From NCBI GenBank assembly GCA_947650365.1, contig OX393555.1:83085995-83149994 (forward strand): a DNA stretch of 64,000 bases, in the 5' to 3' direction. Positions 1 to 64,000 of this stretch are shown piece by piece. The first letter of the stretch is position 1. Every line of letters starts with the position of its first letter. The stretch is from Chamaelirium japonicum. Taxonomy: Eukaryota > Streptophyta > Magnoliopsida > Liliales > Melanthiaceae. A program made the position numbers and the translations under genes. The notes under the pieces are model-generated. The model worked only from the letters and a program-made list of their open reading frames with translations, made no database searches and was not told the origin of the DNA.

Positions 1-1092
1 ACGAAGGAATTAGAATGGATCGTACGAATGAATTAGAATGGATCGTACGAATGAATTAGAATGGATTCATTCGTGCGAATGAATTAGAATGGATCGTACG
101 AATGAGTAAGAATGGATCGTACGAATGAATTAGAATGGATTGAATTAGAATGAATCGTACGAATGAATTAGAATGGATCATACGAAGGAATTAGAAGGGA
201 TCGTGCGAATGAATTAGAATGGATCGTGCGAATGAAATAGAATGGATCGTATGAATAAATTAGAATGGATCGTGCGAATGAATTAGAATGGATCGTACGA
301 ATGAATTAGAATTGATTGTGTGAATGAATTAGAATGGATCGTACGAATGAATTAGAATGGATCGTACGAATGAATTAGAATGGATCGTATGGATGAATTA
401 GAATGGATCGTGCGAATGAATTAGAATGGATCGTACGAATGAATTAGAATGTATTGAATTAGAATGAATCGTACGAATGAATTAGAATGGATTGTACGAA
501 TGAAATAGAATGGATCGTACGAATGAATTGGAATGGATACATTCGTGCGAATGAATTAGAATGGATCGTATGAATGAATTAGAGTGGCTACATTCGAACA
601 AATGAATTAGAATGGATCGTGCGAATGAATTAGAATGGATCGTGCGAATGAATTAGAATGGATCATACGAATGAATTAGAATGGATCATATGAATGAATT
701 AGATTGGATCGTATTAATGAATTAGAATGGATCGTGTGAATGAATTAGAATGGATCGTACGAATGAATTAGAATGGATCGTACGAATGACTTAGAATGGA
801 TCGTTCGAATGAATTAGAATAGATTGTGCGAATGAATTAGAATGGATCGTACGAATGAATTATAAAGGATACATTCGTGCGAATGAATTAGAATGGATCG
901 TATGAGTGAATGATTTAGAATGGATCGTGCGAATGAATTAGAATGGATCGTATTAATGAATTATAATGGATCGTGCGAATGAATTAGAATGGATCGTACG
1001 AATGAGTAAGAATGGATCGTGCGAATGAATTAGAATGGATTGCACGAATGAATTAGAATGGATCGTATGAATGAATTAGAATGGATACATTC
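1..1092 (+). repeat. F block 1, cut by window start
   Basis: Forward units, with 28-bp units near 535 and 868. It ends in the palindromic switch GGATACATTCGTGCGAATCC at 1083-1102 (J-GTGC). Confidence 0.9.
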
Positions 1093-1720
1093 GTGCGAAT
1101 CCATTCTATTTCATTCGTACGATCCATTCTAATTCATTCGCACGATCCATTCTAATTCATTCGTACGATCCATTCTAATTCATTCGTACGATCCATTCTA
1201 ATTCATTCGCACAATCTATTCTAATTCATTCGTACGATCCATTCTAATTCATTCGCACGATCCATTCTAATTCATTCATACGATACATTCTATTTCATTC
1301 GTACGATCCATTCTAATTCATTCGCACGATCCATTCTAATTCATTCGTACGATCCATTCTAATTCATTCGTACGATCCATTCTAATTCATTCGCACAATC
1401 TATTCTAATTCATTCGTACGATCCATTCTTACTCATTCGTACGATCCATTCTAATTCATTTGCACGAAGGTATCCATTCTAATTCATTCGTACTATCCAT
1501 TCTAATTCCTTCGTACGATCCATTCTAATTCCTTCGTACGATCCATTCTAATTCATTCGCACGATCCATTCTAATTCATTCATACGATCCATTCTATTTC
1601 ATTCGTACGATCCATTCTTACTCATTCGTACGATCCATTCTAATTCATTTGCACGAAGGTATCCATTCTAATTCATTCGTACTATCCATTCTAATTCCTT
1701 CGTACGATCCATTCTAATTC
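1093..1720 (-). repeat. R block 2
   Basis: Reverse units. It holds two copies of the GCACGAAGG...GTACTATCC marker (near 1472 and 1652), so a roughly 180-bp stretch is repeated within it. It ends at CTAATTCATTAGAATGG, a switch used again at 5860. Confidence 0.88.
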
Positions 1721-2353
1721 ATTAGAATGGATCGTACGAATGAGTAAGAATGGATCGTACGAATGAATTAGAATGGATTGAATTAGAATGAATCGTACGA
1801 ATGAATTAGAATGGATCGTACGAATGAATTAGAATGGTTCGTACGAATGAATTAGAATGGATTGAATTAGAATGAATCGTACGAATGAATTAGAATGAAT
1901 CATACCGTACGAATGAATTAGAATGGATCATACGAAGGAATTAGAATGGATCGTACGAATGAATTAGAATGGATCGTACGAATGAATTAGAATGGATCGT
2001 ACGAAGGAATTAGAATGGATCGTACGAAGGAATTAGAATGGATAGTACGAATGAATTAGAATGGATACATTCGTGCAAATGAATTATAATGGATCGTACG
2101 AATGAGTAAGAATGGATCGTACGAATAAAATAGAATGGATCGTATGAAGGAATTAGAATGGATCATGCGAATGAATTAGAATGGATCGTACGAATGAATT
2201 AGAATAGATTGTGCGAATGAATTAGAATGGATCGTAGAATGAATTAGAATGGATACATACGAATGAATTAGAATGGATCGTATGAATGAATTAGAATGGA
2301 TCGTGCGAATGAATTAGAATGGATCGTACGAATGAAATAGAATGGATTCGCAC
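1721..2353 (+). repeat. F block 3 with 15-bp units
   Basis: Contains 15-bp units GATTGAATTAGAATG near 1777 and 1859, and the marker CATACCGTACG at 1901. It matches 5860-6250 at offset 4139. It ends at J-GTGC (reverse sense) 2344-2363. Confidence 0.88.
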
Positions 2354-2519
2354 GAATGTATCCATTCTAATTCATTTGTACGATCCATTCTAATTCATTC
2401 GTACAATCCATTCTAATTCATTCGCACGTCCATTCTAATTTATTCGTACGATCCATTCTAATTCATTCGCACGATCCAATCTAATTCATTCGTACGATCC
2501 ATTCTAATTCATTCATACA
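2354..2519 (-). repeat. R block 4
   Basis: Short reverse block of about seven units between J-GTGC and the ACATGT switch at 2517-2522. Confidence 0.88.
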
Positions 2520-3650
2520 TGTACGAATGAATTAGAATGGATACATTCGTGCGAATGAATTAGAATGGATCGTATGAATGAATTAGATTGGATTGTATGC
2601 ATGAATTAGAATGGATCGTGCGAATGAATGAGAATGGATCGTACGAATGAATTAGAATGGATCGAATGAATGAATTAGAATGGATACATTCGTGCAAAAG
2701 AATTAGAATGGATTGCATGAATGAATTAGAATGGATCATGCAAATGAATTAGAATGGATCGTACGAATGAATTAGAATGGATCGTCTGAATGAATTAGAA
2801 TGGATCGTACGAATGAAATAGAATGGATCGTACGAATGAATTAGAATGGATCGTGCGAATGAATTAGAATGGATCGTATGAATGAATTAGAATGGATCGT
2901 ACGAAGGAATTAGAATGGATAGTACGAATGAATTAGAATGGATACCTTCGTGCAAATGAAATAGAATGGATCGTACGAATGAATTAGAGTAGATTGTGCG
3001 AATGGATTAGAATGGATCATACGATTGAGTAAGAATGGATTGTACGAATGAAATAGAATAGATCGTACGAATGAATTATAATGGATCGTACGAATGAATT
3101 AGAATGGATCGTTCGAATGAATTAGAATAGATTGTGCGAATGAATTAGAATGGATCGTACGAATGAATTAGAATCGATCGTGCGAATAAATTAGAATGGA
3201 TCGTATGAATGAATTAGAATGGATCGTGCGAATGAATTAGAATATGGATCGTACGAAGGAATTAGAATGGATCGTACGAATGAATTCGAATGTATTGTAC
3301 GAATGAAATAGAATGGATCGTATGAATGAATTAGAATGGATCGTGCGAATGAATTAGAATGGATCATACGGATGAATTGGAATGGATACATTCGTGTGAA
3401 TGAATTAGAATGGATCGTACGAGTGAAATAGAATGAATCGTTTGAGTGAATTAGAATAGATTGTGCGAATGAATTAGAATGGATCGTACGAATGAATTAG
3501 AATGGATCGTGCGAATAAATTACAATGGATTGTATGAATGACTTAGAATGGATCGTGCGAATGAATTAGAATATAGATCGTACGAATGAATTAGAATAGA
3601 TTGGGCGAATGAATTAGAATGGATCGTATGAATGAATTAGAATGGATCGT
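2520..3650 (+). repeat. F block 5
   Basis: Contains the GGATTAGAATGG...CGATTGAGTAAG marker near 3004, which recurs at 13.99, 19.51, 28.89, 36.39, 38.41, 39.99 and 43.63 kb. It ends at GGATCGTACGATC, CGTACG 3648-3653. Confidence 0.88.
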
Positions 3651-3696
3651 ACGATCTATTCTAATTCATTCATGCAATCCATTCTAATTCATTCGT
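3651..3696 (-). repeat. R block 6, two-unit flip
   Basis: Exactly 46 bp, two units, in reverse orientation between CGTACG at 3648 and CGTACG at 3694. It is the smallest clean inversion in the window. Confidence 0.9.
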
Positions 3697-3768
3697 ACGA
3701 AGGAATTAGAAAGGATCGTACGAATGAATTAGAATGAATCGTACGATTGAATTAGAAAGGATACATTC
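3697..3768 (+). repeat. F block 7
   Basis: About three forward units. It ends at J-TTCGAA, TTCGAA 3766-3771, in the GAAAGGATACATTCGAATTC sense. Confidence 0.87.
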
Positions 3769-20136: not shown

Positions 20137-20451
20137 TGTACGAATGAATTAGAATGGATACATTCGTGCGAATGAATTAGAATGGATCGTATGAATGAAT
20201 TAGATTGGATCGTATGCATGAATTAGAATGGATCGTGCGAATGAATTAGAATGGATCGTACGAATGAATTAGAATGGATCGTATGAATGAATTAGAATGG
20301 ATACATTCGTGTGAATGAATTAGAATGGATCATATGAATGAATTAGAATGGATCGTTTGAGGGAATGCGAATGGATCGTGCGAATGAATTAGAATGGATT
20401 GTACGAATGAATTAGAATAGATCGTACGAATAAATTAGAATGGATACATTC
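20137..20451 (+). repeat. F block 31
   Basis: Carries the variant GTTTGAGGGAATGCG at 20355. It ends at J-GTGC 20442-20461. Confidence 0.88.
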
Positions 20452-21462
20452 GTGCGAATCCATTCTATTTCATTCGTACGATCTATTGTAATTCATTCGC
20501 ACGATCCATTCTAATTCATTCATACAATCCATTCTAATTCATTCGTACGATCCATTCTAATTCATTCGTACGATCCATTCTAATTCATTCGCACAATCTA
20601 TTCTAATTCATTCGTACGATCCATTCTAATTCATTCATACGATCCATTCTAATTCATTCGTACGATTCATTCTAATTCAATCCATTCTAATTCATTCGTA
20701 CGATCCATTCTTACTCATTCGTACGATCCATTCTAATTCATTCGCACGAATGAATCCATTCTAATTCATTCGTATGATCCATTCTAATTCATTTGCACGA
20801 TCCATTCTAATTCATTCTTACGATTCATTCTATTTCATTCATACGATCCATTCTAATTCATTCATATGATCTATTCTAATCCTTTCGCGCGAATGTATCC
20901 ATTCTAATTCATTCGTACGATCCATTCTAATTCATTCGCACGATCCATTCTAATTCATTCATACAATCCATTCTAATTCTTTTGCACGAATGTATCCATT
21001 CTAATTCATTCGTACTATCCATTCTAATTCCTTCGTACGATCCATTCTAATTCCTTCGTACGATCCATTCTAATTCATTCGTATGATCCATTCTAATTCA
21101 TTTGTACGATCAATTCTAATTCCTTCGTATGATCCATTCTAATTCATTCGTACGGTATGATTCATTCTAATTTATTCGTACGATTCATTCTAATTCAATC
21201 CATTCTAATTCATTCGTACGATCCATTCTAATTCATTCGTACGATCCATTTTAATTCATTCGTACGATTCATTCTAATTCAATCCATTCTAATTCATTCG
21301 TACGATCTATTCTAATTCATTCGTACGATCCATTCTAATTCATTCGCACGATCCATTCTAATTCATTCATACGATCCATTCTAATTCATTCATATGATCC
21401 ATTCTAATTCATTCGCACGATCCATTCTAATTCATTCGCACGATCCATTCTAATTCATTCGT
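20452..21462 (-). repeat. R block 32
   Basis: Contains GTACTATCC near 21012 and ACGGTATG at 21152, flanked by reverse 15-bp units. It ends in the perfect palindrome CATTCGTACGAATG 21456-21469. Confidence 0.88.
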
Positions 21463-22113
21463 ACGAATGAATTAGAATGGATACATTCATGCGAATGAAT
21501 TAAAATGGATCATACGAATGAATTAGAATGGATTCATTCGTGCGAATGAATTAGAATGGATCGTACGAATGAGTAAGAATGGATCGTACGAATGAATTAG
21601 AATGGATTGAATTAGAATGAATCGTACGAATGAATTAGAATGGATCGTACGAATGAATTAGAATGGATCGTACGAATGAATTAGAATGGATTGAATTAGA
21701 ATGAATCGTACGAATGAATTAGAATGAATCATACCGTACGAATGAATTAGAATGGATCATACGAAGGAATTAGAATGGATCGTATGAATGAATTAGAATG
21801 GATCGTATGAATGAATTAGAATGAATCGTACGAAGGAATTAGAATGGATCGTACGAAGGAATTAGAATGGATAGTACGAATGAATTAGAATGGATACCTT
21901 CGTGCAAATGAATTAGAATGGATCGTACGAATGAGTAAGAATGGATCGTACGAATGAAATAGAGTGGATCGTATGAATGAATTAGAATGGATCGTGCGAA
22001 TGAATTAGAATGGATCGTACGAATGAATTAGAATGGATCGTATGAATGAATTAGAATGGATCGTGCGAATGAATTAGAATGGATCGTACGAATGAAATAG
22101 AATGGATTCGCAC
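21463..22113 (+). repeat. F block 33
   Basis: Contains 15-bp units, CATACCGTACG at 21730 and GATAGTACG near 21868. It ends at J-GTGC (reverse sense) 22104-22123. Confidence 0.88.
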
Positions 22114-23410
22114 GAATGTATCCATTCTAATTCATTCATACGATCCATTCTAATTCATTCGTACAATCCATTCTAATTCATTCGCACGATCCATTCGCAT
22201 TCACTCAAACTATCCATTCTAATTCATTCATATGATCCATTCTAATTCATTCGCACGAATGTATCCATTCTAATTCATTTGTACGATCCATTCTAATTCA
22301 TTTGTACGAATGTATCCACTCTAATTCATTCATACGATCCATTCTAATTCATTCGCACGAATGTATCCATTCCAATTCATTCGTACGATCCATTCTAATT
22401 CATTCGCACAATCTATTCTAATTCATTCGTATGATCAATTCTAATTCATTAGCATGATTCATTCTAATTCATTCGTACGATCTATTCTATTTCATTCGTA
22501 CAATCCATTCTTACTCAATCGTATAATCCATTCTAATCCATTTGCACAATTAATTCTAATTCATTCGTACGATCCATTCTATTTCATTCGTACGATCCAT
22601 TCTAATTCATACGATCCATTCTATTTCATTCATACGATCCATTTTAATTCATTCGTACGACCCATTCTAATTCATTCGCACGATCCATTCTAATCCATTC
22701 GTACGATCTATTCTATTTCATTCGTACAATCCATTCTAATACATTCGTACGATCCATTCTAATTCATTCGCACAATCTATTCTAATTCATTCGAATGATG
22801 CATTCTAATTCATTCGTACGATCCATTCTAATTCATTCGTACGATCCATTCTAATTCATTCGCACGATCCATTCTAATTCATTCGCACGATCCATTCTAA
22901 TTCATTAGCACGATCCATTCTAATTCATTCATACGATCCATTCTAATTCGTTTGTACGATCCTTTCTAATTCCTTCGTACGATCCATTCTATTTCATTCG
23001 TATGACCCATTCTAATTCATAAGTACGATCCATTCTAATTCATTCAAACGATCCATTCTAATTCATTCGCACGATCCATTCTAATTCATTCATACGATCC
23101 AATCTAATTCATTCATATGATCCATTCTAATTCATTCGCACGAATGTATCCATTCTAATTCATTCGCACGATCCATTCTAATTCATTCATACAATCCATT
23201 CTAATTCTTTTGCACGAATGTATCCATTCTAATTCATTCGTACGATCTATTCTTATTCATTCGTATGATCTTTTCTAATTCATTCGCATGATCCATTATA
23301 ATTCATTCATACGATCCAATCTAATTCATTCGTACGATCCATTCTAATTCATTCGCACGAATGTATCAACTCTAATTCATTTGTACGATCCATTCTAATT
23401 CATTCATACA
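22114..23410 (-). repeat. R block 34
   Basis: Has CGCATTCACTCAAAC at 22197. From about 22.5 kb it matches 25.1 kb onward (offset 2638-2730). The stretch 22454-22693 has its inverted counterpart at 28744-28983 and 39839-40078. It ends at ACATGT 23408-23413. Confidence 0.88.
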
Positions 23411-23845
23411 TGTACGAATGAATTAGAATGAATACATTCGTGCGAATGAATTAGAATGGATCGTATGAATGAATTAGATTGGATCGTATGCATGAATTAG
23501 AATGGATCATGCGAATGAATTAGAATGGATCGTACGAATGAATTAGAATGGATCGAACGAATGAATTAGAATGGATACATTCGTGCAAAAGAATTAGAAT
23601 GGATTGTATGAGTGAATTAGAATGGATCGTGCGAATGAATTAGAATGGATCGTACGAATGAATTAGAATGGATACATTCGTGCGAAAGAATTAGAATAGA
23701 TCCTATGAATGAATTAGAATGGATCGTATGAATGAAATAGAATGGATCGTACGAATGAATTAGAATGGATCGTGCGAATGAATTAGAATGGATCGTATGA
23801 ATGAATTAGAATGGATCGTACGAATGAATTAGAAAGGATACATTC
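23411..23845 (+). repeat. F block 35
   Basis: Copy partner of F block 37. It ends at J-TTCGAA 23843-23848. Confidence 0.88.
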
Positions 23846-26140
23846 GAATTCATTCGTACGATCCATTCTAATTCCTTCGTACGATCCATATACTAATTCA
23901 TTCACACGATCCATTCTAATTCATTCGCACGATCCATTCTAATTCATTCATACGATCCATTCTAATTCATTCGTACGATCCATTCTAATTCATTCGTACG
24001 AATGTATCCACTCTAATTCATTCATATGATCCATTCTAATTCATTCGTATGATCCATTCTATTTCATTCGTACGAATGTATCCATTCTAATTCATTCGTA
24101 CAATCCATTCTAGTTCATTCGCACGATCTATTCGAATTCATTCGCACGAATGTATCCACTCTAATTCATTCATACGATCCATTCTAATTCCTTCGTACGA
24201 TCCATTCTATTTCATTCGTATGATCCATTCTATTTCATTCATATAATCCATTCTAATTCATTCGCACGATCCATTCTAATTCATTCATACGATCCATTCT
24301 ATTTCATTCGTACGATCCATTCTAATTCATTCGCACGAATGTATCCATTCCAATTCATTCGTACGATCCATTCTAATTCATTCGTACGATCCATTCTAAT
24401 TCATTCGTACGATCTATTCTATTTCATTCGTACAATCCATTTTTACTCAATCGTATGATCCATTCTAATCCATTCGCACAATCTACTCTAATTCATTCGT
24501 ACGATCCATTCTATTTCATTTGCACGAAGGTATCCATTCTAATTCATACAATCCATTCTTATTCATTCATACGATCCAATCTAATTCATTCATACGATCC
24601 ATTCTAATTCATTCGCACGAATGTATCCATTCTAATTCATTCGCACGATCCATTCTAATTCATTCATACAATCCATTCTAATTCATTCGTACGATCCATT
24701 CTAATTCATTTGTACGAATGTATCCACTCTAATTCATTCAATGTATCCACTCTAATTCATTCATACGATCCATTCTAATTCCTTCGTACAATCCATTCTA
24801 TTTCATTCGTATGATCCATTCTATTTCATTCATATAATCCATTCTAATTCATTCGCACGATCCATTCTAATTCATTCATACGATCCATTCGAATTCATTC
24901 GTATGATCCATTCTAATTCATTCGTTCGATCCATTCTAATTTATTCGCACGATCCATTCTAATTCATTCATACGATCCATTCTTACTCATTCGTACGATC
25001 CATTTTAATTCATTCGCACGATCCATTCTAATTCATCCGTACGATCCATTCTATTTCATTCGTACGATCCATTCTTACTCATTCGTACGATCCATTCTAA
25101 TTCATTCACACGAATGTATCCATTCTAATTCATTCGTACAATCCATTCTTACTCAATCGTATGATCCATTCTAATCCATTCGCACAATCTATTCTAATTC
25201 ATTCGTACGATCCATTCTATTTCATTCGTACGATCCATTCTAATTCATACGATCCATTCTATTTCATTCATACGATCCATTTTAATTCATTCGCACGATC
25301 CATTCTAATTCATTCATACGATCCATTCTAATTCATTTATACGATCCATTTTAATTCATTCGCACAATCTATTCTAATTCATTCGTATGATCAATTCTAA
25401 TTCATTCGCACGATCCATTCTAATTCATTCGCACGATCCATTCTAATTCATTCATACGATCCAATCTAATTCATTCATACGATCCATTCTAATTCATTCG
25501 CACGATCCATTCTAATTCATTCGTACGATCTATTTTATTTCATTCGTACAATCCATTCTAATTCATTCATACGATCCAATCTAATTCATTCATACGATCC
25601 ATTCTAATTCATTCGTACGATCTATTCTATTTAATTCATACGATCCATTCTAATTCGTTTGTACGATCCTTTCTAATTCCTTCGTACGATCCATTCTATT
25701 TCATTCGTATGACCCATTCTAATTCATAAGTACGATCCATTCTAATTCATTCAAACGATCCATTCTAATTCATTCGTACGATCCATTCTAATTCATTTGC
25801 ACGATCCATTCTAATTCATTCATACGATCCAATCTAATTCATTCATACGATCCATTCTAATTCATTCGCACGAATGTATCCATTCTAATTCATTCGCACG
25901 ATCCATTCTAATTCATTCATAGAATCCCTTCTAATTCTTTTGCACGAATGAATCCATTCTAATTCATTCGTACGATCCATTCTAATTCATTCGTATGATC
26001 TATTCTAATTCATTCGCATGATCCATTATAATTCATTCATACGATCCAATCTAATTCATTCGTACGATCCATTCTAATTCATTCGCACGAATGTACCAAC
26101 TCTAATTCATTCGTACGATCCATTCTAATTCATTCATACA
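23846..26140 (-). repeat. R block 36, 2.3 kb
   Basis: Repeated internal stretches with ACTCAATCG near 24445 and 25151. The second half duplicates 22.5-23.4 kb. It ends at ACATGT 26138-26143. Confidence 0.88.
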
Positions 26141-38637: not shown

Positions 38638-39121
38638 ATTCATTCGTACGATCCATTCTAGTTCCTTCGTACGATCCATATTCATTCGTATGATTCATTC
38701 TAATTCATTCGTACGATCCATTCTAATTCATTCATACGATCCATTCTAATTCATTCGCACGATCCATTCTAATTCATTCGTACGATCCATTCTATTTCAT
38801 TCATACGATCCATTCTAATTCATTCATACGATCTATTCTAATTCTTTCGCACGAATGTATCCATTCTAATTCATTCGTACGATCCATTCTAATTCATTCG
38901 CACGATCCATTCTAATTCACTCATACAATCCATTCTAATTCTTTTGCACGAATGTATCCATTCTAATTCATTCGTTCGATCCATTCTAATTCATTCGTAC
39001 GATCCATTCTAATTCATTCGCATGATCCATTCTAATTCATGCATACGATCCAATCTAATTCATTCATACGATCCATTCTAATTCATTCGCACGAATGTAT
39101 TCATTCTAATTCATTCGTACA
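38638..39121 (-). repeat. R block 52, cassette copy
   Basis: Third cassette copy. It ends at ACATGT 39119-39124. Matches to 37.3-38.2 kb run at offset 1358-1404. Confidence 0.87.
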
Positions 39122-40418
39122 TGTATGAATGAATTAGAATGGATCGTACAAATGAATTAGAGTTGATACATTCGTGCGAATGAATTAGAATGGATCGTAC
39201 GAATGAATTAGATTGGATCGTATGAATGAATTATAATGGATCATGCGAATGAATTAGAAAAGATCATACGAATGAATAAGAATAGATCGTACGAATGAAT
39301 TAGAATGGATACATTCGTGCAAAAGAATTAGAATGGATTGTATGAATGAATTAGAATGGATCGTGCGAATGAATTAGAATGGATACATTCGTGCGAATGA
39401 ATTAGAATGGATCATATGAATGAATTAGATTGGATCGTATGAATGAATTAGAATGGATCGTGCGAATGAATTAGAATGGATCGTTTGAATGAATTAGAAT
39501 GGATCGTACTTAGAAATTAGAATGGGTCATACGAATGAAATAGAATGGATCGTACGAAGGAATTAGAAAGGATCGTACAAACGAATTAGAATGGATCGTA
39601 TGAATGAATTAGAATGGATCGTGCTAATGAATTAGAATGGATCGTGCGAATGAATTAGAATGGATCGTGCGAATGAATTAGAATGGATCGTACGAATGAA
39701 TTAGAATGGATCATACGAATGAATTAGAATGGATCATTCGAATGAATTAGAATAGATTGTGCGAATGAATTAGAATGGATCGTACGAATGTATTAGAATG
39801 GATTGTACGAATGAAATAGAATAGATCGTACGAATGAATTAGAATGGATCGTGCGAATGAATTAGAATGGGTCGTACGATTGAATTAAAATGGATCGTAT
39901 GAATGAAATAGAATGGATCGTATGAATTAGAATGGATCGTACGAATGAAATAGAATGGATCGTACGAATGAATTAGAATAGATTGTGCAAATGGATTAGA
40001 ATGGATTATACGATTGAGTAAGAATGGATTGTACGAATGAAATAGAATAGATCGTACGAATGAATTAGAATGGATCATGCTAATGAATTAGAATTGATCG
40101 TACGAATGAATTAGAATAGATTGTGCGAATGAATTAGAATGGAACGTAAGAATGAATTGGAATGGATACATTCGTGCGAATGAATTAGAATGGATCGTAT
40201 GAATGAATTAGAGTGGATACATTCGTACAAATGAATTAGAATGGATCGTACAAATGAATTAGAATGGATACATTCGTGCGAATGAATTAGAATGGATCAT
40301 ATGAATGAATTAGAAAGGATAGTTTGAGTGAATGCGAATGGATCGTGCGAATGAATTAGAATGGATTGTACGAATGAATTAGAATGGATCGTATGAATGA
40401 ATTAGAATGGATACATTC
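39122..40418 (+). repeat. F block 53
   Basis: The end repeats 36.2-36.8 kb (offset 3602) and 28.7-29.3 kb (offset 11095). GTTTGAGTGAATGCG is at 40322 and J-GTGC at 40409-40428. Confidence 0.88.
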
Positions 40419-41115
40419 GTGCGAATCCATTCTATTTCATTCGTACGATCCATTCTAATTCATTCGCACGATCCATTCTAATTCATTCATACGATCCATT
40501 CTAATTCATTCGTACGATCCATTCTAATTCATTCGTACGATCCATTATAATTCAATCACACAATCTATTCTAATTCATTCGTACGATCCATTCTAATTCA
40601 TTCGCACGATCCATTCTAATTCATTCATACGATCCACTCTATTTCATTCGTACGATCCATTCTTACTCATTCGTACGATCCATTCTAATTCATTTGCACG
40701 AAGGTATCCATTCTAATTCATTCGTACTATCCATTCTAATTCCTTCGTACGATCCATTCTAATTCCTTCGTACGATTCATTCTAATTCATTCATACGATC
40801 CATTCTAATTCCTTCGTATGATCCATTCTAATTCATTCGTACGGTATGATTCATTCTAATTCATTCGTACGATTCATTCTAATTCAATCCATTCTAATTC
40901 ATTCGTACGATCCATTCTAATTCATTCGTACGATCCATTCTAATTCATTCGTACGATTCATTCTAATTCAATCCATTCTAATTCATTCGTACGATCCATT
41001 CTTACTCATTCGTATGATCCATTCTAATTCATTCGCACGAATGAATCCATTCTAATTCATTCGTATGATCCATTTTAATTCATTCGCATGAATGTATCCA
41101 TTCTAATTCATTCGT
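40419..41115 (-). repeat. R block 54
   Basis: Copy of 29.32-30.0 kb, with GTACTATCC near 40726 and ACGGTATG at 40841. It ends at CATTCGTACGAATG, CGTACG 41113-41118. Confidence 0.88.
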
Positions 41116-42126
41116 ACGAATGAATTAGAATGGATCGTGTGAATGAATTAGAATGGATCGTGCGAATGAATTAGAATGGATCATATGAATGAATTAGAAT
41201 GGATCGTATGAATGAATTAGAATGGATCGTGCGAATGAATTAGAATGGATCGTACGAATGAATTAGAATAGATCGTACGAATGAATTAGAATGGATTGAA
41301 TTAGAATGAATCGTACGAATGAATTAAAATGGATCGTACGAATGAATTAGAATGGATCGTACGAATGAATTAGAATGGATTGAATTAGAATGAATCGTAC
41401 GAATAAATTAGAATGAATCATACCGTACGAATGAATTAGAATGGATCATACGAAGGAATTAGAATTGATCGTACAAATGAATTAGAATGGATCATACGAA
41501 TGAATTAGAATGGATCGTACGAAGGAATTAGAATGGATCGTACGAAGGAATTAGAATGGATAGTACGAATGAATTAGAATGGATACATTCGTGCAAAAGA
41601 ATTAGAATGGATTGTATGAATGAATTAGAATGGATCGTGCGAATGAATTAGAAAGGATCGTACGAATGAATTAGAATGGATACATTCGCGCGAAAGAATT
41701 AGAATAGATCGTATGAATGAATTAGAATGGATCGCATGAATGAAATAGAATGGATCGTACGAATGAATTAGAATGGATCGTGCAAATGAATTAGAATGGA
41801 TCATACGAATGAATTAGAATGGATTCATTCGTGCGAATGAATTAGAATGGATCGTACGAATGAGTAAGAATGGATCGTACGAATGAATTAGAATGGATTG
41901 AATTAGAATGAATCGTACGAATGAATTAGAATGGATCGTATGAATGAATTAGAATGGATCGTACGAATGAATTAGAATAGATTGTGCGAATGAATTAGAA
42001 CGGATCGTACGAATGAATTAGAATGGATCGTACGAATGAATTAGAATGGATTGTATGAATGAATTAGAATGGATTGTGCGAATGAATTAGAATAGATCGT
42101 ACGAATGAAATAGAATGGATTCGCAC
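41116..42126 (+). repeat. F block 55
   Basis: Contains 15-bp units, CATACCGTACG at 41419 and GATAGTACG near 41557. It ends at J-GTGC (reverse sense) 42117-42136. Confidence 0.88.
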
Positions 42127-42298
42127 GAATGTATCCATTCTAATTTATTCGTACGATCTATTCTAATTCATTCGTACGATCCATTCTAATTCATTCACAC
42201 GATCCATTCTAATTCATGCATACGATCCAATCTAATTCATTCATACGATCCATTCTAATTCATTCGCACGAATGTATCCATTCTAACTCATTCGTACA
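42127..42298 (-). repeat. R block 56
   Basis: Short reverse block. It ends at ACATGT 42296-42301. Confidence 0.88.
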
Positions 42299-51946: not shown

Positions 51947-53425
51947 ACGATTCATTCTAATTCATTCGTATGATCCATTCTAATGCATTAGTACGATTCA
52001 TTCTAATTCATTCGCACGATCCATTCTAATTCATTCGTACGATCCATTCTTATTCATTCATACGATCCATTCTAATTCATTCATACGATCCATTCTAATT
52101 CATTTGTACGATCCATTCTAATTCATTCGTATGATCCATTCTAACTCATTCGGTGGATCCATTCTAATTCATTCGTACGATCCATTCTAATTCATTCGCA
52201 CGATCTATTCTAATTTATTTGTACGATCCATTCTAATTTATTCCTATGATACATTGTAATTCATTCGCACGAATGTATCCATTCTAATTCATTTGCACGA
52301 TCCATTCTAATTCATTCCTATGATCCATTCTAATTCATTCGTACGATCCATTCTAATTCATTCGCTCGAATGTATCCATTCTAATTCATTCGTACGATCC
52401 ATTCTAATTCGTTCATACGATCCATTCTAATTCGTTTGTATGAACCATTCTAATTCGTTCGTACGATTCATTCTAATTCATTCGCACGATCCATTCAAAT
52501 GCATTCGTACGATTAATTCTAATTCATTCGCACGATCCATTCTAATTCATTCGTACGATCCATTCTTATTCATTCATACGATCCATTCTAATTCGTTCGC
52601 ACAATCCATTCTAATTCATTCGTATGATCCATTCTAATTCATTCGTATGATCCATTCTAACTCATTCGGTGGATCCATTATAATTCATTCGTACGATCCA
52701 TTCTAATTCTTTCGTACGATCCATTCTAATTTATTCGTACAATCCATTCATATTCATTCGTACGATCTATTCTAATTCATTCACACGAATGTATCCATTC
52801 TAATGCATTCGTACAATTCATTCTAATTCATTCGCACGATCCATTCTAAATCATTCGTACGATCCATTCTTATTCATTCATACGATCCATTCTAATTCAT
52901 TCGCACAATCCATTCAAATTCATTCATAAGATCCATTCTAATTCATTCGTATGATCCATTCTAACTCATTCGGTGGATCCATTCTAATTCATTCGTACTA
53001 ATTCATTCGTACGATCCATTCTAATTCATTCGCACGATCCATTCTAACTCATTCGTACGATCCATTCTAATTCATTTGTACGATCCATTCTAATTTATTT
53101 GCAGGAATATACGATCCATTCTAATTCATTCGCACAAATGTATCAATTCTAATTCATTCGTACGATCCATTCTAATTCATTCGTATGATCTATTCTAATT
53201 CATTCGCACGAATGTAACCATTCTTATTCATTCGTACGATTCATTCTAATTCATTCGTATGAGCTATTCTAATTCATTCGTACGATCTATTCTAATTCAT
53301 TCGTACGATCCATTCTAATCCATTCGTACGATCCATTCTAATTCATTCCTACGATCCATTCTTATTCATTCTCACAAATGTAACCTTTCTAATTCGTTCG
53401 TACGATCCATTCTAATTCATTCCCA
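51947..53425 (-). repeat. R block 72
   Basis: Contains CATTCGGTGGATCC near 52150, 52667 and 52970, and a truncated unit GTACTAATTC at 52996. It ends at CCCACAAATG. Confidence 0.87.
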
Positions 53426-54331
53426 CAAATGAATTAGAATGGATCGTACGAATGAATTAGAATGGATTGTACGAATGAATTAGAATAGATCGTGCGAATG
53501 AATTAAAATGGATCGTACGAATGAATTAGAATGGATCCACCGAATGAGTTAGAATGGATCATACGAAGGAATTAGAATGGATTGTGCGAATGAATTAGAA
53601 TGGATCGTATGAATGAATAAGAATGGATCGTACGAATGAATTAGAATGGATCGGGCGAATGAATTAGAATGAATCGTACGAATGCATTAGAATGGATCGT
53701 ACGAATGAATTAGAATGAATCGTACGAACGAATTAGAATGGATCGTACGAACGAATTAGAATGGATCGTATGAACGAATTAGAATAGATCGTACGAATGA
53801 ATTAGAATGGATACATTTGAGCGAATGAATTAGAATGGATTGTACGAATGAATTAGAATGGATCATAGGAATGAATTAGAATGGATCATGCAAATGAATT
53901 AGAATGGATACATTCGTGCGAATGAATTAGAATGGATCAAAGGAATGAATTAGAATAGTTCGTACGAATAAATTAGAATGGATCGTGCGAATGAATTAGA
54001 ATGGATCGTACGAATGAATTAGAATGGATCCACCGAATGAGTTAGAATGGATCATACGAATAAATTAGAATGGATCGCACGAATGAATTAGAATGGATCG
54101 TATCAATGAATTAGAATGGATCGTATGAATGAATAAGAATGGATCATACGAATGAATTAGAATGGATCGTACGAATGAATTAGAATGAATCGTACGAATG
54201 CATTAGAATGGATCGTATGAATGAATTAGAATGGATCGCACGAATAAATTAGAATGGATCGTACGAATGAATTAGAATGAATCGTACGATTGCATTAGAA
54301 TGAATCGTATGAATGAATTAGAATGAATCGT
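53426..54331 (+). repeat. F block 73
   Basis: Contains GGATCCACCGAATGAG near 53534 and 54030. It ends at CGTACG 54329-54334. Confidence 0.87.
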
Positions 54332-55480
54332 ACGATCCATTCTAATTCATTCGTCCGATCCATTCTAATTCATTCGCACGAATGTATCCATTCTAATTCA
54401 TTCGTACAATCCATTCTAATTCATTCGCACGATCCATTCTAATTCATTCGTATGATCCATTCTAATTCATTCCTATGATCTATTCTAATTCATTCGCTCG
54501 AATGTATCCATTCTAATTCATTCGTACAATCCATTCTAATTCATTCACACGATCCATTCTAATTCATTCGTATGATCCATTCTAATTCATTCGTATGATC
54601 CATTCTAATTCATTCGTACGATCCATTCTAACTCATTCACACAAATGTATCCATTCTAATTCATTCGTACGATCCATTCTAATTCATTCGCACGATCTAT
54701 TCTAATTCATTCGTACGATCCATTCTAATTTATTCGTACGATCCATTCTAATTCATTCGTACGTTCCATTCTAATTCATTCGCACAAATGTATCGATTCT
54801 AATTCATTCGTACGATCCATTCTAATTCATTCGCACGATCCATTCTAATTCATTCGTACGATCCATTCTAATACATTCGCACGATCCATTCTAATTCATT
54901 CGTACGATCCATTCTAATTCATTCGTACGATCCATTCTAATTCATTCGTACGATCCATTCCAACTCATTCGGTCGATCCATTCTAATTCATTCGTCCGAT
55001 CCAATCTAATTCATTCGCACGATCCATTCTAATTTATTGGTACGATCCATTCTAATTCATTCCTATGATCCATTCTAATTCTTACGCATGAATGTATCCA
55101 TTCTAATTCATTCGTACGATCCATTCTAATTCATTCGCACGATCCATTCTAATTCATTCGCACAAATGTATCCGTTCTAATTCATTCGTACGATCCATTC
55201 TAATTCATTCGCTCGAATGTATCCATTCTAATTCATTCGTACGATTCATTCTAATTCATTCGTACGATTCATTCTAATTCATTCGTATGAGCTATTCTAA
55301 TTCATTCGTACGATCAATTCTAATTCGTTCGTATGATCCATTATAATTCATTTATACAATCCATTCAGATTCATTCGCACAAATGTATCCATTCAAATTC
55401 ATTCGTACGATCCATTCTAATTAATTCGCACGATCCATTCTAATTCAGTCGTATGAATGTACCCATTTTAATTCATTCGT
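54332..55480 (-). repeat. R block 74
   Basis: Matches 59.49-60.6 kb at offset 5135-5158. It ends at CATTCGTATGAATG. Confidence 0.88.
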
Positions 55481-55643
55481 ATGAATGAATTAGAATGGAT
55501 ATATTCGAGCGAATGAATTAGAATGGATCGTACGAATGAATTAGAATGGATCATAGGAATGAATTAGAGTGGATCGTGCAAATAAATTAGAATGGATACA
55601 TTCGTGCGAATGAATTAGAATGGATCGTAGGAATGAATTAGAA
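55481..55643 (+). repeat. F block 75
   Basis: About seven forward units with CGTAGGAATG. It ends at ATTAGAACGATCC, copied at 60778. Confidence 0.87.
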
Positions 55644-56871
55644 CGATCCATTCTAATTCAGTCGTACGATCCATTCTAATTCATTCGTACGAATGTATCC
55701 ATTCTAATTCATTCGCACGATCCATTCTAATTCATTCGTACGATCCATTCTAATTCATTCGCACGAATGTATCCATTCTAATGCATTCGTACGATTCATT
55801 CTAATTCATTCGCACGAACCATTCTAATTCATTCGTATGATCCATTCTTATTCATTCATACGTTCCATTCTAATTCATTCGCACGAATGTAACCATTCTA
55901 ATTCATTCGCACGATCCATTTCTTATTCATTCGTACGATCCATTCTAATTCATTCGCACGATCCATTCTAATCCACTCGTACGATCCATTCTAATCCATT
56001 CATACGATCCATTCTAATTTATTCGTACGATCCATTCTAATTCATTCGCTCGAATGTATCCATTCTAATTCATTCGTACGATCCATTCTAATTCGTTCAT
56101 ACGATCCATTATAATTCTTTCATATGATCCATTCTAATTCATTTGTACGATCCATTCTAATTCATTCGCATGATCCATTCTAATTCATGATCCATTCTAA
56201 TTCATTTGTACGATCCATTCTAATTCATTCGCATGATCCATTCTAATTCATTTACACGAATGTAACCATTCTAATTCATTCGTACGATCAATTCTAATTC
56301 ATTCTCACGAATGTAACCTTTCTAATTCATTTGTACGATCCATTCTAATTTATTCGCTCGAATGTATCTATTCTAATTCATTCATATGATCCATTCTAAT
56401 TCATTCATACGATCCATTCTAATTCATTCGTACGATTCATTCTAATTCATTCGCACGATCCATTCTAATTCATTCGTACGATCCATTCTAATTCATTCGC
56501 ACGAATGTATCCATTCTAATTTATTCGTACAATCCATTCTTATTCATTCGCACGATCCATTCTAATTCATTCCTACGATCCATTCTAATTCATTCCTACG
56601 ATCTATTCTAATTCATTCGCTCGAATGTATCCATTCTAATTTATTCGTTCGATCCATTCTAATTCATTCGTACGATCCATTCAAATTCATTCGCATGATC
56701 CATTCTAATTCATTCGTACGATCCATTCTAATTCATTCTCACGAATGTAACCTTTCAAGCTCATTTGTACGATCCATTCTAATTCATTCGCTCGAATGTA
56801 TCCATTCTAATTCATTCGTATGATCCATTCTAATTCATTCGCACAATCCATTCTAATTCAGTCGTATGAAT
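55644..56871 (-). repeat. R block 76
   Basis: Includes a 15-bp reverse unit (CATTCTAATTCATGATC) at about 56190, copied at 61348. It ends at CAGTCGTATGAATGTATC 56859. Confidence 0.87.
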
Positions 56872-57570
56872 GTATCATACGAATGAATTAGAAAGGTTAC
56901 ATTCGTGAGAATGAATTAGAATGGATCGTACGAATGAATTAGAATGGATCGTATGAATGAATAAGAATGGATCGTACGAATGAATTAGAATGGATCGTAC
57001 GAATGAATTAGAATGGATCGTGTGAATGAATTAGAATGGATCGTACGAATGAATTCGAATGGATCGTGCGAATGAATTAGAATGGATCGTACGAATGAAT
57101 TAGAATGGATACATTTGTGTGAATGAATTAGAATGGATCGTACGAATGAATTAGAATGGATCGTACGAATGAATCAGAATGGATCGTATGAATGAATTAG
57201 AATGGATCGTGCGAATGAATTAGAATGGATCGTACGAATGAATTAGAATGGATATATTTGTGCGAATGAGTTAGAATGGATCATACGAATGAATTAGAAT
57301 GGATCGTACGAATGAATTAGAATGGATCATACGAATAAATTAGAATGGATCGTGCGAATGAATTAGAATGGATTGTACGAATGAATTAGAACGGATACAT
57401 TCGAGCGAATGAATTAGAATAGATCGTAGGAATGAATTAGAATGGATCATACGAATGAATTAGAATGGATCGTGCGAATGAATTAGAATGGATTGTACGA
57501 ATGAATTAGAATGGATACATTTGTGCGACTGAATTAGAATGGATAGGAAGAATGAATTAGAATGGATCGT
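56872..57570 (+). repeat. F block 77
   Basis: Offset-5624 copy of F block 71, with GATATATTTG at 57251. It ends at CGTACG 57568-57573. Confidence 0.88.
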
Positions 57571-58980
57571 ACGATTCATTCTAATTCATTCGTATGATCC
57601 ATTCTAATGCATTCGTATGATTCATTCTAATTCATTCGCACGATCCATTATAATTAATTCGTACGATCCATTCTTATTCATTCATACGATCCATTCTAAT
57701 TCATTCGTACGATCCATTCTAATTCATTCGTATGATCCATTCTAATTCATTCGTATGATCCATTCTAACTCATTCGGTGGATCCATTCTAATTCATTCGT
57801 ACGATCCATTCTAATTCATTCCTATGATCCATTCTAATTCATTCGCACGAATGTATCCATTCTAATTCATTTGCACGATCAATTCTAATTCATTCCTATG
57901 ATCCATTCTAATTCATTCGTACGATCCATTCTAATTCATTCGCTCGAATGTTTCCATTCTAATTCATTCGTACGATCCATTCTAATTCGTTCATACGATC
58001 CATTCTAATTCGTTTGTATGAACTATTCTAATTCGTTCGTACGATTCATTCTAATTCATTCTTACGATCCATTCTAAAGCATTCTACGATTCATTCTAAT
58101 TCATTCGCACGATCTATTCTAATTCATTCGTACGATCTATTCTTATTCATTCATACGATCCATTCTAATTCGTTCGCACAATCAATTCTAATTCATTCGT
58201 ATGATCCATTCTAATTCATTCGTATGATCCATTCTAACTCATTCGGTGGATCCATTCTAATTCATTCGTATGATCCATTCTAATTCATTCGTACGATCCA
58301 TTCTAATTTATTCGTACGATCCATTCTTATTCATTCGTACGATCTATTCTAATTCATTCACACGAATGTATCCATTCTAATGCATTCGTACGATTCATTC
58401 TAATTCATTCGCACGATCCATTATAAATCATTCGTACGATCCATTCTTATTCATTCATACGATCAATTCTAATTCATTCGCACAATCCATTCTAATTCAT
58501 TCATACGATCCATTCTAATTCATTCGTATGATCCATTCTAATTCATTCGTACTAATTCATTCGTACGATCCATTCTAATTCATTCGCACGATCCATTCTA
58601 ACTCATTCGTACGATTCATTCTAATTCATTTGTACGATCCATTCTAATTTATTTGCACGAATATACGATCCATTCTAATTCATTCGCACAAATGTATCAA
58701 TTCTAATTCATTCGTACGATCCAGTCTAATTCATTCGTATGATCTATTCTAATTCATTCGCACGAATGTAACCATTCTAATTCATTCGTACGATTCATTC
58801 TAATTCATTCGTATGAGCTATTCTAATTCATTCATACAATCCATTCTAATTCATTCGTACGATCCATTCTAATCCATTCGTACGATCCATTCTAATTCAT
58901 TCGTACGATCCATTCTTATTCATTCTCACAAATGTAACCTTTCTAATTCGTTCGTACGATCCATTCTAATTCATTTCCAC
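57571..58980 (-). repeat. R block 78
   Basis: Copy of R block 72 at offset 5554-5624, including the truncated GTACTAATTC unit at 58550. Confidence 0.88.
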
Positions 58981-59489
58981 AAATGAATTAGAATGGATCG
59001 TACGAATGAATTAGAATGGATTGTACGAATGAATTAGAATAGATCATGCGAATGAATTAGAATGGATCGTGCAAATGAATTAAAATGGATTCATTCGTGC
59101 GAATGAATTAGAATGGATCATAGGAATGAATTAGAATAGTTCGTACGAATAAATTAGAATGGATCGTGCGAATGAATTAGAATGGATCGTACGAATGAAT
59201 TAGAATGGATCCACCGAATGCGTTAGAATGGATCATACGAATAAATTAGAATGGATCGCACGAATGAATTAGAATGGATCGTACGAATGAATTAGAATGG
59301 ATCGTATGAATGAATAAGAATGGATCGTACGAATGAATTAGAATGAATCGTACGAATGCATTAGAATGGATCGTATGAATGAATTAGAATGGATCGCACG
59401 AATGAATTAGAATGGATCGTACGAATGAATTAGAATGAATCGTACGAATGCATTAGAATGGATCGTATGAATGAATTAGAATGAATCGT
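58981..59489 (+). repeat. F block 79
   Basis: Shortened copy of F block 73. It ends at CGTACG 59487-59492. Confidence 0.87.
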
Positions 59490-60615
59490 ACGATCCATTC
59501 TAATTCATTCGTCCGATCCATTCTAATTCATTCACACGAATGTATCCATTCTAATTCATTCGTACAATCCATTCTAATTCATTCGCACGATCCATTCTAA
59601 TTCATTCGTATGATCCATTCTAATTCATTCCTATGATCTATTCTAATTCATTCGCTCGAATGTATCCATTCTAATTCATTCGTACAATCCATTCTAATTC
59701 ATTCGTATGATCCATTCTAATTCATTCGTACGATCCATTCTAATTCATTCGTATGATCCATTCTAACTCATTCGCACAAATGTATCCATTCTAATTCATT
59801 CGCACGATCCATTCTAATTCATTCGCACGATCCATTCTAATTCATTCGTACGATCCATTCTAATTCATTCGTCCGATCCATTCTAATTCATTCGTACGAT
59901 CCGTTCTAATTCATTCGCACAAATGTATCGATTCTAATTCATTCGTACGATCCATTCTAATTCATTCGCACGATCCATTCTAATTCATTCGTACGATCCA
60001 TTCTAATACAATCGCACGATCCATTCTAATTCATTCGTACGATCCATTCTAATTCATTCGTACGATCCATTCTAATTCATTCGTACGATCCATTCCAACT
60101 CATTCGGTCGATCCATTCTAATTCATTCGTACGATCCAATCTAATTCATTCACACGATCCATTCTAATTTGTTGGTACGATCCATTCTAATTCATTCCTA
60201 TGATCCATTCTAATTCATACGTACTAATGTATCCATTCTAATTCATTCGTACGATCCATTCTAATTCATTCGCACGATCCATTCTAATTCATTCGTACAA
60301 ATGTATCCATTCTAATTCATTCGTATGATCCATTCTAATTCATTCGTACGATCCATTCTAATTCATTCGCTCGAATGTATCCATTCTAATTTATTCGTAC
60401 GATTCATTCTAATTCATTCGTATGAGCTATTCTAATTCATTCGTACGATCCATTCTAATTCATTCGTATGATCCTTTGTAATTCATTTATACAATCCATT
60501 CAGATTCATTCGCACAAATGTATCCATTCAAATTTATTCGTACGATCCATTCTAATTAATTCGCACGATCCATTCTAATTCAGTCGTACGAATGTATCCA
60601 TTTTAATTCATTCGT
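59490..60615 (-). repeat. R block 80
   Basis: Copy of R block 74. It ends at CATTCGTACGAATG, CGTACG 60613-60618. Confidence 0.88.
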
Positions 60616-60778
60616 ACGAATGAATTAGAATGGATATATTCGAGGGAATGAATTAGAATGGATCGTACGAATGAATTAGAATGGATCATAGGAATGAATT
60701 AGAATGGATCATGCAAATAAATTATAATGGATACATTCATGCGAATGAATTAGAATGGATCGTAGGAATGAATTAGAA
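60616..60778 (+). repeat. F block 81
   Basis: Copy of F block 75, with the same ATTAGAACGATCC exit. Confidence 0.87.
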
Positions 60779-62030
60779 CGATCCATTCTAATTCATTCGT
60801 ACGATCCATTCTAATTCATTCGTACGATCCATTCTAATTCATTCGTACGAATGTATCCATTCTAATTCATTCGCACGATCCATTCTAATTCATTCGTACG
60901 ATCCATTCTAATTCATTCGCACGAATGTATCCATTCTAATGCATTCGTACGATTCATTTTAATTCATTCGCTCGATCCATTCTAATTCATTCGTACGATC
61001 CATTCTTATTCATTCATATGATCCATTCTAATTCATTCGCACAAATGTAACCATTCTAATTCATTCGCACGATCCATTTCTAATTCATTCGTACGATCCA
61101 TTCTAATTCATTCGCACGATCCATTCTAATCCACTCGTACGATCCATTCTAATCCATTCGTACGATCCATTCTAATTAATTCGTACGATCCATTCTAATT
61201 CATTTGCTCGAATGTATCCATTCTAATTCATTCGTACGATCCAGTCTAATTCGTTCATACGATCCATTATAATTCTTTCATATGATCCACTCTAATTCAT
61301 TTGTACGATTCATTCTAATTCATTCGCATGATCCATTCTAATTCATGATCCATTCTAATTCATTTGTACGATCCATTCTAATTCATTTGCATGATCCATT
61401 CTAATTCATTCACACGAATGTAACCATTATAATTCATTCGTACAATCAATTCTAATTCATTCTCACGAATGTAACCTTTCTAATTCATTTGTACGATCCA
61501 TTCTAATTCATTCGCTCGAATGTATAGATTCTAATTCATTCGTACGATCCATTCTAATTCATTCGTACGATCCATTCTAATTCATTCGTACGATTCATTG
61601 TAATTCATTCGCACGATCCATTCTAATTCATTCGTACGATCCATTCTAATTCATTCGCACGAATGTATCCTTTCTAATTCATTCATACAATCCATTCTTA
61701 TTCATTCGCACGATCCATTCTAATTCATTCGTATGATCCATTCTAATTCATTCCTACGATCTATTCTAATTCATTCGCTCGAATGTATCCATTCTAATTC
61801 ATTCGTTCGATCCATTCTAATTCATTCGTACGATCCATTCAAATTCATTCGCATGATCCATTCTAATTCATTCGTACGATCCATTCTAATTTATTCTCAC
61901 GAATGTAACCTTTCAAACTCATTTGTACGATCCATTCTAATTCATTCGCTCGAATGTATCCATTCTAATTCATTCGTATGATCCATTCTAATTCATTCGC
62001 ACAATCCATTCTAATTCAGTCGTATGAATG
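60779..62030 (-). repeat. R block 82
   Basis: Copy of R block 76, with CAGTCGTATGAATGTATC at 62017. Confidence 0.87.
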
Positions 62031-62748
62031 TATCATACGAATGAATTAGAATGGATCATGCGAATGAATTAAAATGGATCGTACAAATGAATTGGAATGG
62101 ATCGTACGAATGAATTAGAATGGATCGTACGAATGAATTAGAATGGATACATTCGAGCGAATGAATTAGAATGGATCGTACAAATGAATTAGAAAGGTTA
62201 CATTCGTGAGAATGAATTAGAATGGATCGTACGAATGAATTAGAATGGATCATGCGAATGAATTTGAATGGATCGTGCGAATGAATTAGAATGGATCGAA
62301 CGAATGAATTAAAATGGATACATTCGAGCGAATGAATTAGAATAGATCATAGGAATGAATTAGAATGGATCATACGAATGAATTAGAATGGATCGTGCGA
62401 ATGAATTAGAATGGATTGTACGAATGAATTAGAATGGATACATTCGTACGAATGAATTAGAATGGATCGTAAGAATGAATTAGAATTGATCGTAGGAATG
62501 AATTAGAATGGATCATACGAATGAATTAGAATGGATCGTGCGAATGAATTAGAATGGATTGTACGAATGAATTAGAATGGATACATTCGTGCGAATGAAT
62601 TAGAATGGATCGGACGAATGAATTAGAATGGATCGTACGAATGCATTAGAATGGATCGTACGAATGAATTAAAATGGATACATTCGAGCGAATGAATTAG
62701 AATGGATCGTGCGATGAATTAGAATGGATCATACAAATGAATTAGAAT
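62031..62748 (+). repeat. F block 83
   Basis: Contains several CATTCGAGCG 28-bp units. It ends at GAATAGATTCTAATCC near 62748. Confidence 0.86.
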
Positions 62749-62880
62749 AGATTCTAATCCATTCGTACGATCCATTCTAATCTATTCTATTTCATTCACA
62801 CAAATGTATCCATTCTAATTCATTCTCACGAATGTAACCTTTCTAATTCATTTGTATGATCCATTCAAATTCATTAGTAC
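62749..62880 (-). repeat. R block 84
   Basis: About five reverse units with two irregular lengths near 62785. It ends at CATTAGTACGAATG. Confidence 0.85.
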
Positions 62881-63333
62881 GAATGAATAGAATGGATCGT
62901 ACGAATGAATCGTATGAATGAATTAGAATGGATCATACGAATGAATTAGAATGGATCATGCGAATGAATTAGAATAGATCGTACAAATGAATTAGAATGG
63001 ATCGTACGAATAAATTGGAATGGATCGTGCGAATGAATTAGAATGGATCGGTTGAATGAATTAGAATGGATCCACCGAATGAGTTAGAATGGATCATACG
63101 AATGAATTAGAATGGATCGTACGAATGAATTAGAATAGATACATTCGAGCGAATGAATTAGAATGGATCATATGAATGAATAAGAATGGATCGTGCGAAT
63201 AAATTAGAATGGATACATTCGTGCGAATGAATTAGGATGGATCGTAGGAATGAATTAGAATGGATCGTACGAATGAATTAGAATGGATCGTATGAACGAA
63301 TTAGAATGGATCGTACGAATGAATTAGAATCGT
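62881..63333 (+). repeat. F block 85
   Basis: Contains GGATCCACCGAATGAG near 63069. It ends at GAATCGTACGATC, CGTACG 63331-63336. Confidence 0.87.
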
Positions 63334-64000
63334 ACGATCTAATTCATTCGTACGATCCATTCTAATTCATTCGCACGAATGTATCCATTCTAATTCATTC
63401 GCACAATCCATTCTAATCCATTCGTACGATCAATTCTAATCCATTCGTACGATCCATTCTAATTCATTCGTATGATCCATTCTAATTCATTCGTACGATC
63501 CATTCTAATTCTTTCGTACGATCCATTCTAATTCATTCACACGAATGTATCCATTCTAATGCATTCGTACGATCCATTCTAATTCATTTGTACGATCCAT
63601 TCTAATCCATTCGTACGATCCATTCTAATTTATTAGTACGATCCATTCTAATTCATTCGTACGATCCATTCTAATGCATTCGTACGATTCATTCTAATTC
63701 ATTCGCACGATCCATTCTAATTCATTCGTACGATCCATTCTTATTCATTCATACGATCCATTCTAATTCATTCGCACAATCCATTCTAATTCATTCGTAC
63801 GATCCATTCTAATTCATTCGTATGATCCATTTTAATTTATTTGTACGATCCATTCTTATTCATTCGTACGATCCATTCTAATTCATTCGTACGATCCATT
63901 GTAATTCATTCGCTCGAATGGCTCCATTCTTATTCATCGCACAAATGTATCCATTCTAATTCATTCGTACGATCCATTCTAATTCATTCGTACGATCCAT
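63334..64000 (-). repeat. R block 86, cut by window end
   Basis: Reverse units running to the last base, so the array continues beyond the window. Confidence 0.88.

Follow-up and report, generated by a model that had tools for sequence, protein, structure and literature searches.

Polarity switches in a Chio satellite array of Chionographis japonica appear to be mostly copied

A Chio1/Chio2 array with 85 polarity switches

How does a tandem satellite come to reverse its orientation 85 times within 64 kb, and does each reversal record a separate event? The question is raised by a 64,000-bp stretch of the Chionographis japonica genome (hereafter the window, positions 1–64000), which corresponds to C7:83,085,995-83,149,994 on the 85.87-Mb scaffold 7, with one scaffold end ∼2.7 Mb away. 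The window consists of one satellite with a 23-bp unit throughout, GAATGAATTAGAATGGATCGTAC in forward polarity or its complement in reverse, arranged into 86 blocks of alternating polarity that assign the array as a whole to neither strand. Most probably, this polarity mosaic goes back to few founding joins followed by repeated direct and inverted copying of blocks within and between chromosomes, with the switches mainly inherited and reshuffled and some new joins added. Strand alternation itself is already known; the addition here is that the switches are mostly copied and not made anew.

The window belongs to the Chio1/Chio2 satellite of C. japonica, a settled assignment in which the published monomers are compared by description and not by their letters. 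Chio1 and Chio2 are described as 23- and 28-bp centromere satellites and as the CENH3 holocentromere repeat, with CENH3 enrichment published for Chio arrays (Kuo et al., 2023, PMC10264360). Tandem Repeats Finder (TRF) returned periods of 23, 46, 69, and 28 in the window. The 28-bp variant is present, with GGATCGTAC of the 23-bp unit replaced by GGATACATTCGTGC (five additional base pairs and A to G). The variant word occurs 224 times in the 264-kb stretch made up of the window and 100 kb on each side (no N), and fits the published 28-bp type, which is five base pairs and one substitution apart. The consensus across two monomers contains TCGTACGAA, the complement of the 9-bp TTCGTACGA named as common to the Chio and Chama satellites (Kuo et al., 2025, PMC12722358). 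Four 15-mers of the monomer had no match in the searched literature.

The satellite makes up 85.7% of the 264-kb stretch, in which the array is broken by non-satellite stretches of 17.2, 6.9, and 13.4 kb. Genome-wide, 1,077,632 exact 39-mers were found; extrapolation with the density of one locus gives ∼337 Mb, or 22% of the 1,518,659,071 bases in 3253 contigs, and the published Chio share of the genome is 16.11% (PMC10264360). The published assembly comprises 12 chromosome scaffolds totaling 1090.73 Mb with an N50 of 81.11 Mb and was built from HiFi reads (PMC10264360).

Switches were called with a strand-aware hidden Markov model (HMM) of 23 cyclic states in forward and reverse, trained on the window itself. 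The HMM returned 85 switches and 86 blocks at switch penalties of 1e-5, 1e-6, and 1e-8, and 87 and 89 switches at 1e-4 and 1e-3, respectively. The blocks range from 30 to 2556 bp (median 635.5 bp), and forward bases make up 48.6%. For the control, satellite blocks from the 264 kb were set to the same polarity and concatenated; in the initial 100 kb of this head-to-tail sequence the HMM found one block with no switch. Polarity switching in the array is real and is confirmed by these runs. An earlier reading made from the letters alone (the sequence-only reading) had described the 64 kb as one satellite with a 23-bp unit and 85 switches between 86 blocks of about one unit to 2.5 kb, and had proposed a strand-aware HMM as a check; the same unit, count, and sizes were recovered. 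When a background state was added, 81 of the 85 switches were direct joins and the other four held an 18-bp non-satellite filler.

Most of these switches have near-identical copies. The 309 switches across the 264 kb were clustered by all-versus-all comparison of the 120 bp around each, within the same polarity type only. Pairwise junction identities are bimodal with a trough at 0.88–0.92. At 90% identity the 309 switches fall into 69 families (the largest with 48, 45, 30, and 28 members) and the 85 of the window into 27, with 82 of the 85 placed in a family of at least two. Over nine clustering settings the window families number 26–40, and between 79 and 83 of the 85 switches are matched by a near-identical copy elsewhere in the 264 kb. 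Reverse-to-forward families outnumber forward-to-reverse families (46 vs 23, p = 0.008; 65 vs 44 under stricter clustering), an imbalance on which nothing is built here. Repeated block lengths amount to 87, as compared with a mean of 32 and a maximum of 52 in 500 simulations.

The junctions also recur across the genome. The 28-bp forward-to-reverse junction word JA, which spans the switch at 1087 (1079–1106, plus strand), has six forward and seven reverse exact copies in the window and 6157 forward and 6125 reverse exact copies genome-wide (12,282 in total). A second junction word, JB, has 1942 and 2020 (3,962 in total). No copy of the reversed control was found for either word. That the sequence was produced by the assembly, with satellite reads collapsed or mis-joined, is extremely improbable. 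HiFi reads, from which this assembly was made, are far longer than the 635-bp median block, and junction words of 28–32 bp recur 1341 to 12,282 times with no occurrence of the reversed control. Although the assembly of satellite arrays is difficult and the published contig N50 is 2.88 Mb (PMC10264360), the alternation is reported by the assembly's own authors (PMC10264360; PMC12722358).

Switch density, ∼1.3 per kb in the window, varies between loci. Seven other loci on six scaffolds, chosen non-randomly (five from matches to the first 300 bp of the window, two near junction-word places), hold 66 switches in 57.9 kb of satellite, spread unevenly as 18, 0, 12, 16, and 5 in five 10-kb pieces and 10 and 5 in two 4-kb pieces. 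Two of eight overlapping 3-kb loci at one place on scaffold 1 (C1) have two and three switches. These data bear on the idea that turn sequences are selected, for example as hairpin-forming sites for centromere chromatin, which would keep few junction types at high copy. The few large junction families are consistent with such selection, and the conserved inversion sites of Tribolium madens have led its authors to raise a possible function (PMC13081366). Block duplication alone, however, yields high copy, the 10-kb stretch on scaffold 1 lacks any switch, and in the sister genus Chamaelirium the large centromere arrays are reported to keep a consistent orientation (PMC12722358). Selection on turn sequences is therefore regarded as very improbable.

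Copied blocks and a tagged junction

Copies of array pieces are found in both orientations, with switches inside them. Self-comparison of the 264 kb at ≥95% identity and ≥1.5 kb gave 13 pairs, seven direct and six inverted. The satellite pairs include one of 12.4 kb that is direct (99.4%) and one of 12.4 kb that is inverted (99.3%). In a spaced palindrome whose 7.6-kb arms are 99.0% identical, the block lengths are mirrored: 124, 451, 268, 523, 1082, and 1785 bp in one arm and 1783, 1084, 523, 268, 451, and 124 bp in the other.

Within the window, the longest pair at ≥90% identity is inverted and the next is direct. The block at 20281–24811 (plus strand), which contains five switches, has its inverted copy at 37720–42297 (minus strand; 93.5% identity over 4616 columns). 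The block at 53793–57689, also with five switches, has a direct copy at 58979–62882 (92.0% identity), and the block at 27267–29583, with one switch, has a direct copy at 34755–37076 (95.2% identity), all four on the plus strand. The window pairs of ≥1 kb number nine direct and four inverted, and those of ≥500 bp 29 direct and 28 inverted. Copies of switches compared over 300 bp gave 441 direct, 455 inverted, and 57 ambiguous pairs, which are not independent of one another. The similarity extends to another chromosome: the first 80 kb of scaffold 11 contains an inverse match to the left part of the window (94.3% over 8.76 kb) that covers 14 window switches with the block lengths in the same order.

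The near-identical junction families and the block duplications with switches inside bear out the suggestion that switching travels with the higher-order copies. The accompanying claim that the array grew by inverted duplication holds in part: inverted pairs of 7.6 and 12.4 kb at 99% do exist, but direct copies are about as common.

One junction can be followed further by its own mark. A reverse-to-forward switch carries the 18-bp filler that the HMM with background state does not read as satellite. It is present at four places in the window, 26763–26780 on the minus strand, inverted relative to the other three, and 30828–30845, 34109–34126, and 37077–37094 on the plus strand. Because it carries this non-satellite filler, the tagged switch very likely formed once. 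Genome-wide, the 32-mer around the filler is repeated letter for letter at 1341 places (703 forward, 638 reverse), and the reversed-pattern control at none. Among 83 candidate places, 40 were scored, and all 40 match the 151 bp around the filler at 98–100%; they lie on scaffolds 2, 3, 4, 6, 7, 8, 9, 11, and 12 (9 of the 12) and on unplaced contigs. On balance we favor the view that polarity junctions are heritable tags of single origin, with the filler join copied, in forward as well as reverse orientation, to at least 1341 sites spread over no fewer than 9 of the 12 chromosome scaffolds.

Several further observations concern the placement of these copies. C11:51784-51934 matches window positions 26700–26850 at 100%, and C11:77390-77689 matches positions 1–300 at 100%, whereas the 8.76 kb that lie between them on scaffold 11 reach 94.3%. 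Among the places listed, the tag and JB first appear on C2, and C1, the largest scaffold, seems to be without both; JA has 21 places on C1 among those listed, of 12,282 in all. On scaffold 2 (1.65–2.24 Mb) the JA places listed share one orientation, but a reverse copy near 1,903,838 lies outside that list, and a uniform orientation of JA there is rejected. One C1 locus has no switch in 10 kb and other C1 loci do switch. The centromere units of C1 may be partly isolated from exchange. When the tag matches on chromosomes were grouped by eye into ∼17 unit-like places, ∼9 were no farther than 5 Mb from a scaffold end, a possible hint of exchange between terminal units or of a misplaced haplotig.

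Founding switches, modes of copying, and inserted elements

In the history that we favor, a limited set of strand-switch joins would have arisen at various times, a minority of them perhaps turning at short dyads such as CGTACG. Pieces of the array of up to ∼12 kb, switches included, would have been duplicated repeatedly, direct and inverted, both within the array and between satellite arrays on different chromosomes; sequence homology shows the copies in both settings. The copying process itself may have been ectopic break repair or non-allelic conversion, for example.

The sequence-only reading had instead proposed repeated inverted duplication or template switching as the growth mode, under which each switch would be a separate fold-back or template-switch event that leaves inverted duplicates on its two sides. 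The arms beside the switches were compared wherever they reached ≥230 bp, as they did at 194 of 305 switches, using 1506 arm pairs from different switches as the null. No arm symmetry was found at the switches in this comparison (mean score 159.2 vs 159.0, p = 0.41), and 0 of the 194 exceeded the 99th percentile of the null. Fold-back at each switch is unsupported because the similarity of the two arms at a switch does not exceed that of arms taken from different switches, and the 79–83 of 85 switches with copies likewise speak against it. In its favor, the array does contain inverted duplications whose arms measure 7.6 and 12.4 kb, and perfect palindromes of ≥18 bp at the turn, one of them 56 bp long, occur in 7 of 46 reverse-to-forward families as compared with 3.5% of random joins (p = 0.001). 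Separate fold-back at every switch is decidedly unlikely.

A perfect palindrome of ≥10 bp is present at the turn in 16 of the 69 founder families, compared with 9.1% of simulated random joins (p = 0.0004), and the excess comes from the reverse-to-forward families (12 of 46, p = 0.0009). A minority of founders may thus have turned at a dyad; the remaining founders show no such sign. One 45-bp reverse block, shown with its flanks at 3637–3710 (not assigned to a strand), turns at a CGTACG dyad at both ends, with its switches at 3650 and 3695.

The dyads also invite an explanation by simple inversion, in which array pieces between dyads or opposite repeats were inverted and left reciprocal junctions on both sides of a block. 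There are 25 turns from forward to reverse at sites like GATCGTACGATC and 27 from reverse to forward at sites like ATTCGTACGAA; both use the CGTACG dyad, and these similar numbers are as simple inversion would predict. The reciprocal junction pairs expected from it are not in excess, however, the two classes flanking the same reverse block five times against ∼4 expected from class frequencies. Moreover, homologous inversion between opposite repeats reshuffles existing switches and creates none. Simple inversion as the general source is rather unlikely.

Several points weigh against a history of few founders and extensive block copying. How many independent switch events there were is uncertain, since the number of families changes with the threshold: a cutoff of 0.95 yields 113 families and leaves 13 of the 85 window switches as singletons. 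Only ∼322 kb of an estimated few hundred megabases of satellite was covered, and the homology around the genome-wide copies of the tag extends over the 151 bp compared. Two of the seven direct pairs in the 264 kb are retroelement sequence (a 4.3-kb tandem and a long terminal repeat (LTR) pair), leaving five direct and six inverted satellite pairs. Later exchange may have scrambled old fold-back arms, and the arm test is compatible with ancient fold-backs. As for the dyads, 53 of the 69 families have a palindrome below 10 bp; forward-to-reverse families have no clear palindrome excess (4 of 23, p = 0.12), and their mean palindrome of 5.0 bp is shorter than the 6.0 bp of random joins. The similarity of 25-bp arms with a loop allowed likewise shows no clear excess over random joins (0.875 vs 0.857 and 0.857 vs 0.858).

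An inserted element gives some indication of timing. To the right of the window lies a 13.4-kb LTR retrotransposon (264-kb coordinates 214164–227576) with gag, reverse transcriptase, and RNase H domains. A 5-bp repeat, CGAAT, flanks the element, which sits within one arm of the spaced palindrome; in the opposite arm the site is uninterrupted. The two LTRs differ at 14 of 1558 aligned sites, and satellite arms at 50 of 5840 and 53 of 7538 sites (gap columns excluded). The inverted duplication and the LTR insertion are of similar low divergence, and large inverted copying is therefore not only ancient. Satellite homogenization could blur this comparison of LTR and arm divergence.

The other interruptions of the array are of different kinds. 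In the left flank (264-kb coordinates 51975–73301), a 17.2-kb non-satellite stretch (54027–71233) contains a 4.3-kb tandem duplication at 98.4% identity and an open stretch with reverse transcriptase and RNase H domains. The two members of a direct pair of 2.06 kb (96.8%), mostly satellite in sequence, flank this non-satellite stretch on either side. Inside this pair, each within satellite of the same polarity, are non-satellite pieces of 57 and 62 bp with the same T-rich-led sequence (52731–52787 and 71999–72060). The 6.9-kb insert in the right flank (172883–179766) has RVT_1 and zf-RVT reverse transcriptase matches and an A run near its end, and is probably a non-LTR element. Elsewhere in the assembly, 59 small contigs (e.g., C514, C537, and C551) each have a full-length cox1 match of equal score. 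The cox1 match is open over 532 codons in the standard code with no internal stops, which suggests a plant mitochondrion, and the assembly probably contains many redundant mitochondrial contigs.

Centromere unit dispersal and comparison with known systems

The mechanism by which new centromere units became distributed chromosome-wide is stated to be unknown in the published work, where non-allelic conversion is proposed (PMC12722358). If polarity junctions are indeed heritable single-origin tags, Chio centromere units would exchange multi-kilobase pieces between chromosomes, inserted in either orientation, and such exchange would be the missing step in the spread of the Chio holocentromere. 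With the tagged junctions, the dispersal of centromere units becomes testable, since each identifies one line of copies to be traced across units, chromosomes, and individuals; they could serve as lineage tags for the movement of centromere blocks between chromosomes. By the same token, orientation switches should not be counted as independent events.

The alternating orientation of Chio has been published before (Kuo et al., 2023, PMC10264360; Kuo et al., 2025, PMC12722358). These publications concern the same assembly; the monomers they describe are 23 and 28 bp long and contain dyads, forward and reverse arrays are mixed, and one higher-order repeat cluster, CL73, contains Chio. The main-text parts of the two papers covered here do not describe families of junctions, their copies across the genome, or the pattern of direct and inverted duplication. 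With this alternation and that of T. madens published (PMC10264360; PMC12722358; PMC13081366), the sequence-only reading goes too far in taking it as a rule that ordinary satellites remain head-to-tail.

The TmSat1 and TmSat2 satellites of T. madens, with their macro-dyad symmetries, resemble Chio in being putative centromere-region satellites whose orientation changes at few highly conserved inversion sites (PMC13081366). Conserved sequence at the switches is likewise found in the Chio array. The T. madens arrays mostly consist of two subarrays tending to symmetry (PMC13081366), whereas the Chio blocks are short and far more numerous, and the arms at Chio switches are no more alike than random arms. 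Mirrored subarrays around a switch were not found in the Chio array, with the exception of the one spaced palindrome with 7.6-kb arms. Closer in phylogeny is Chama of Chamaelirium luteum, a centromere satellite of the sister genus that also contains TTCGTACGA (PMC12722358). Chama differs from Chio in its 60-bp unit and in higher-order repeats that extend over several hundred kilobases, and its reported consistent orientation is contrasted by the authors with the frequently alternating orientation of Chio (PMC12722358).

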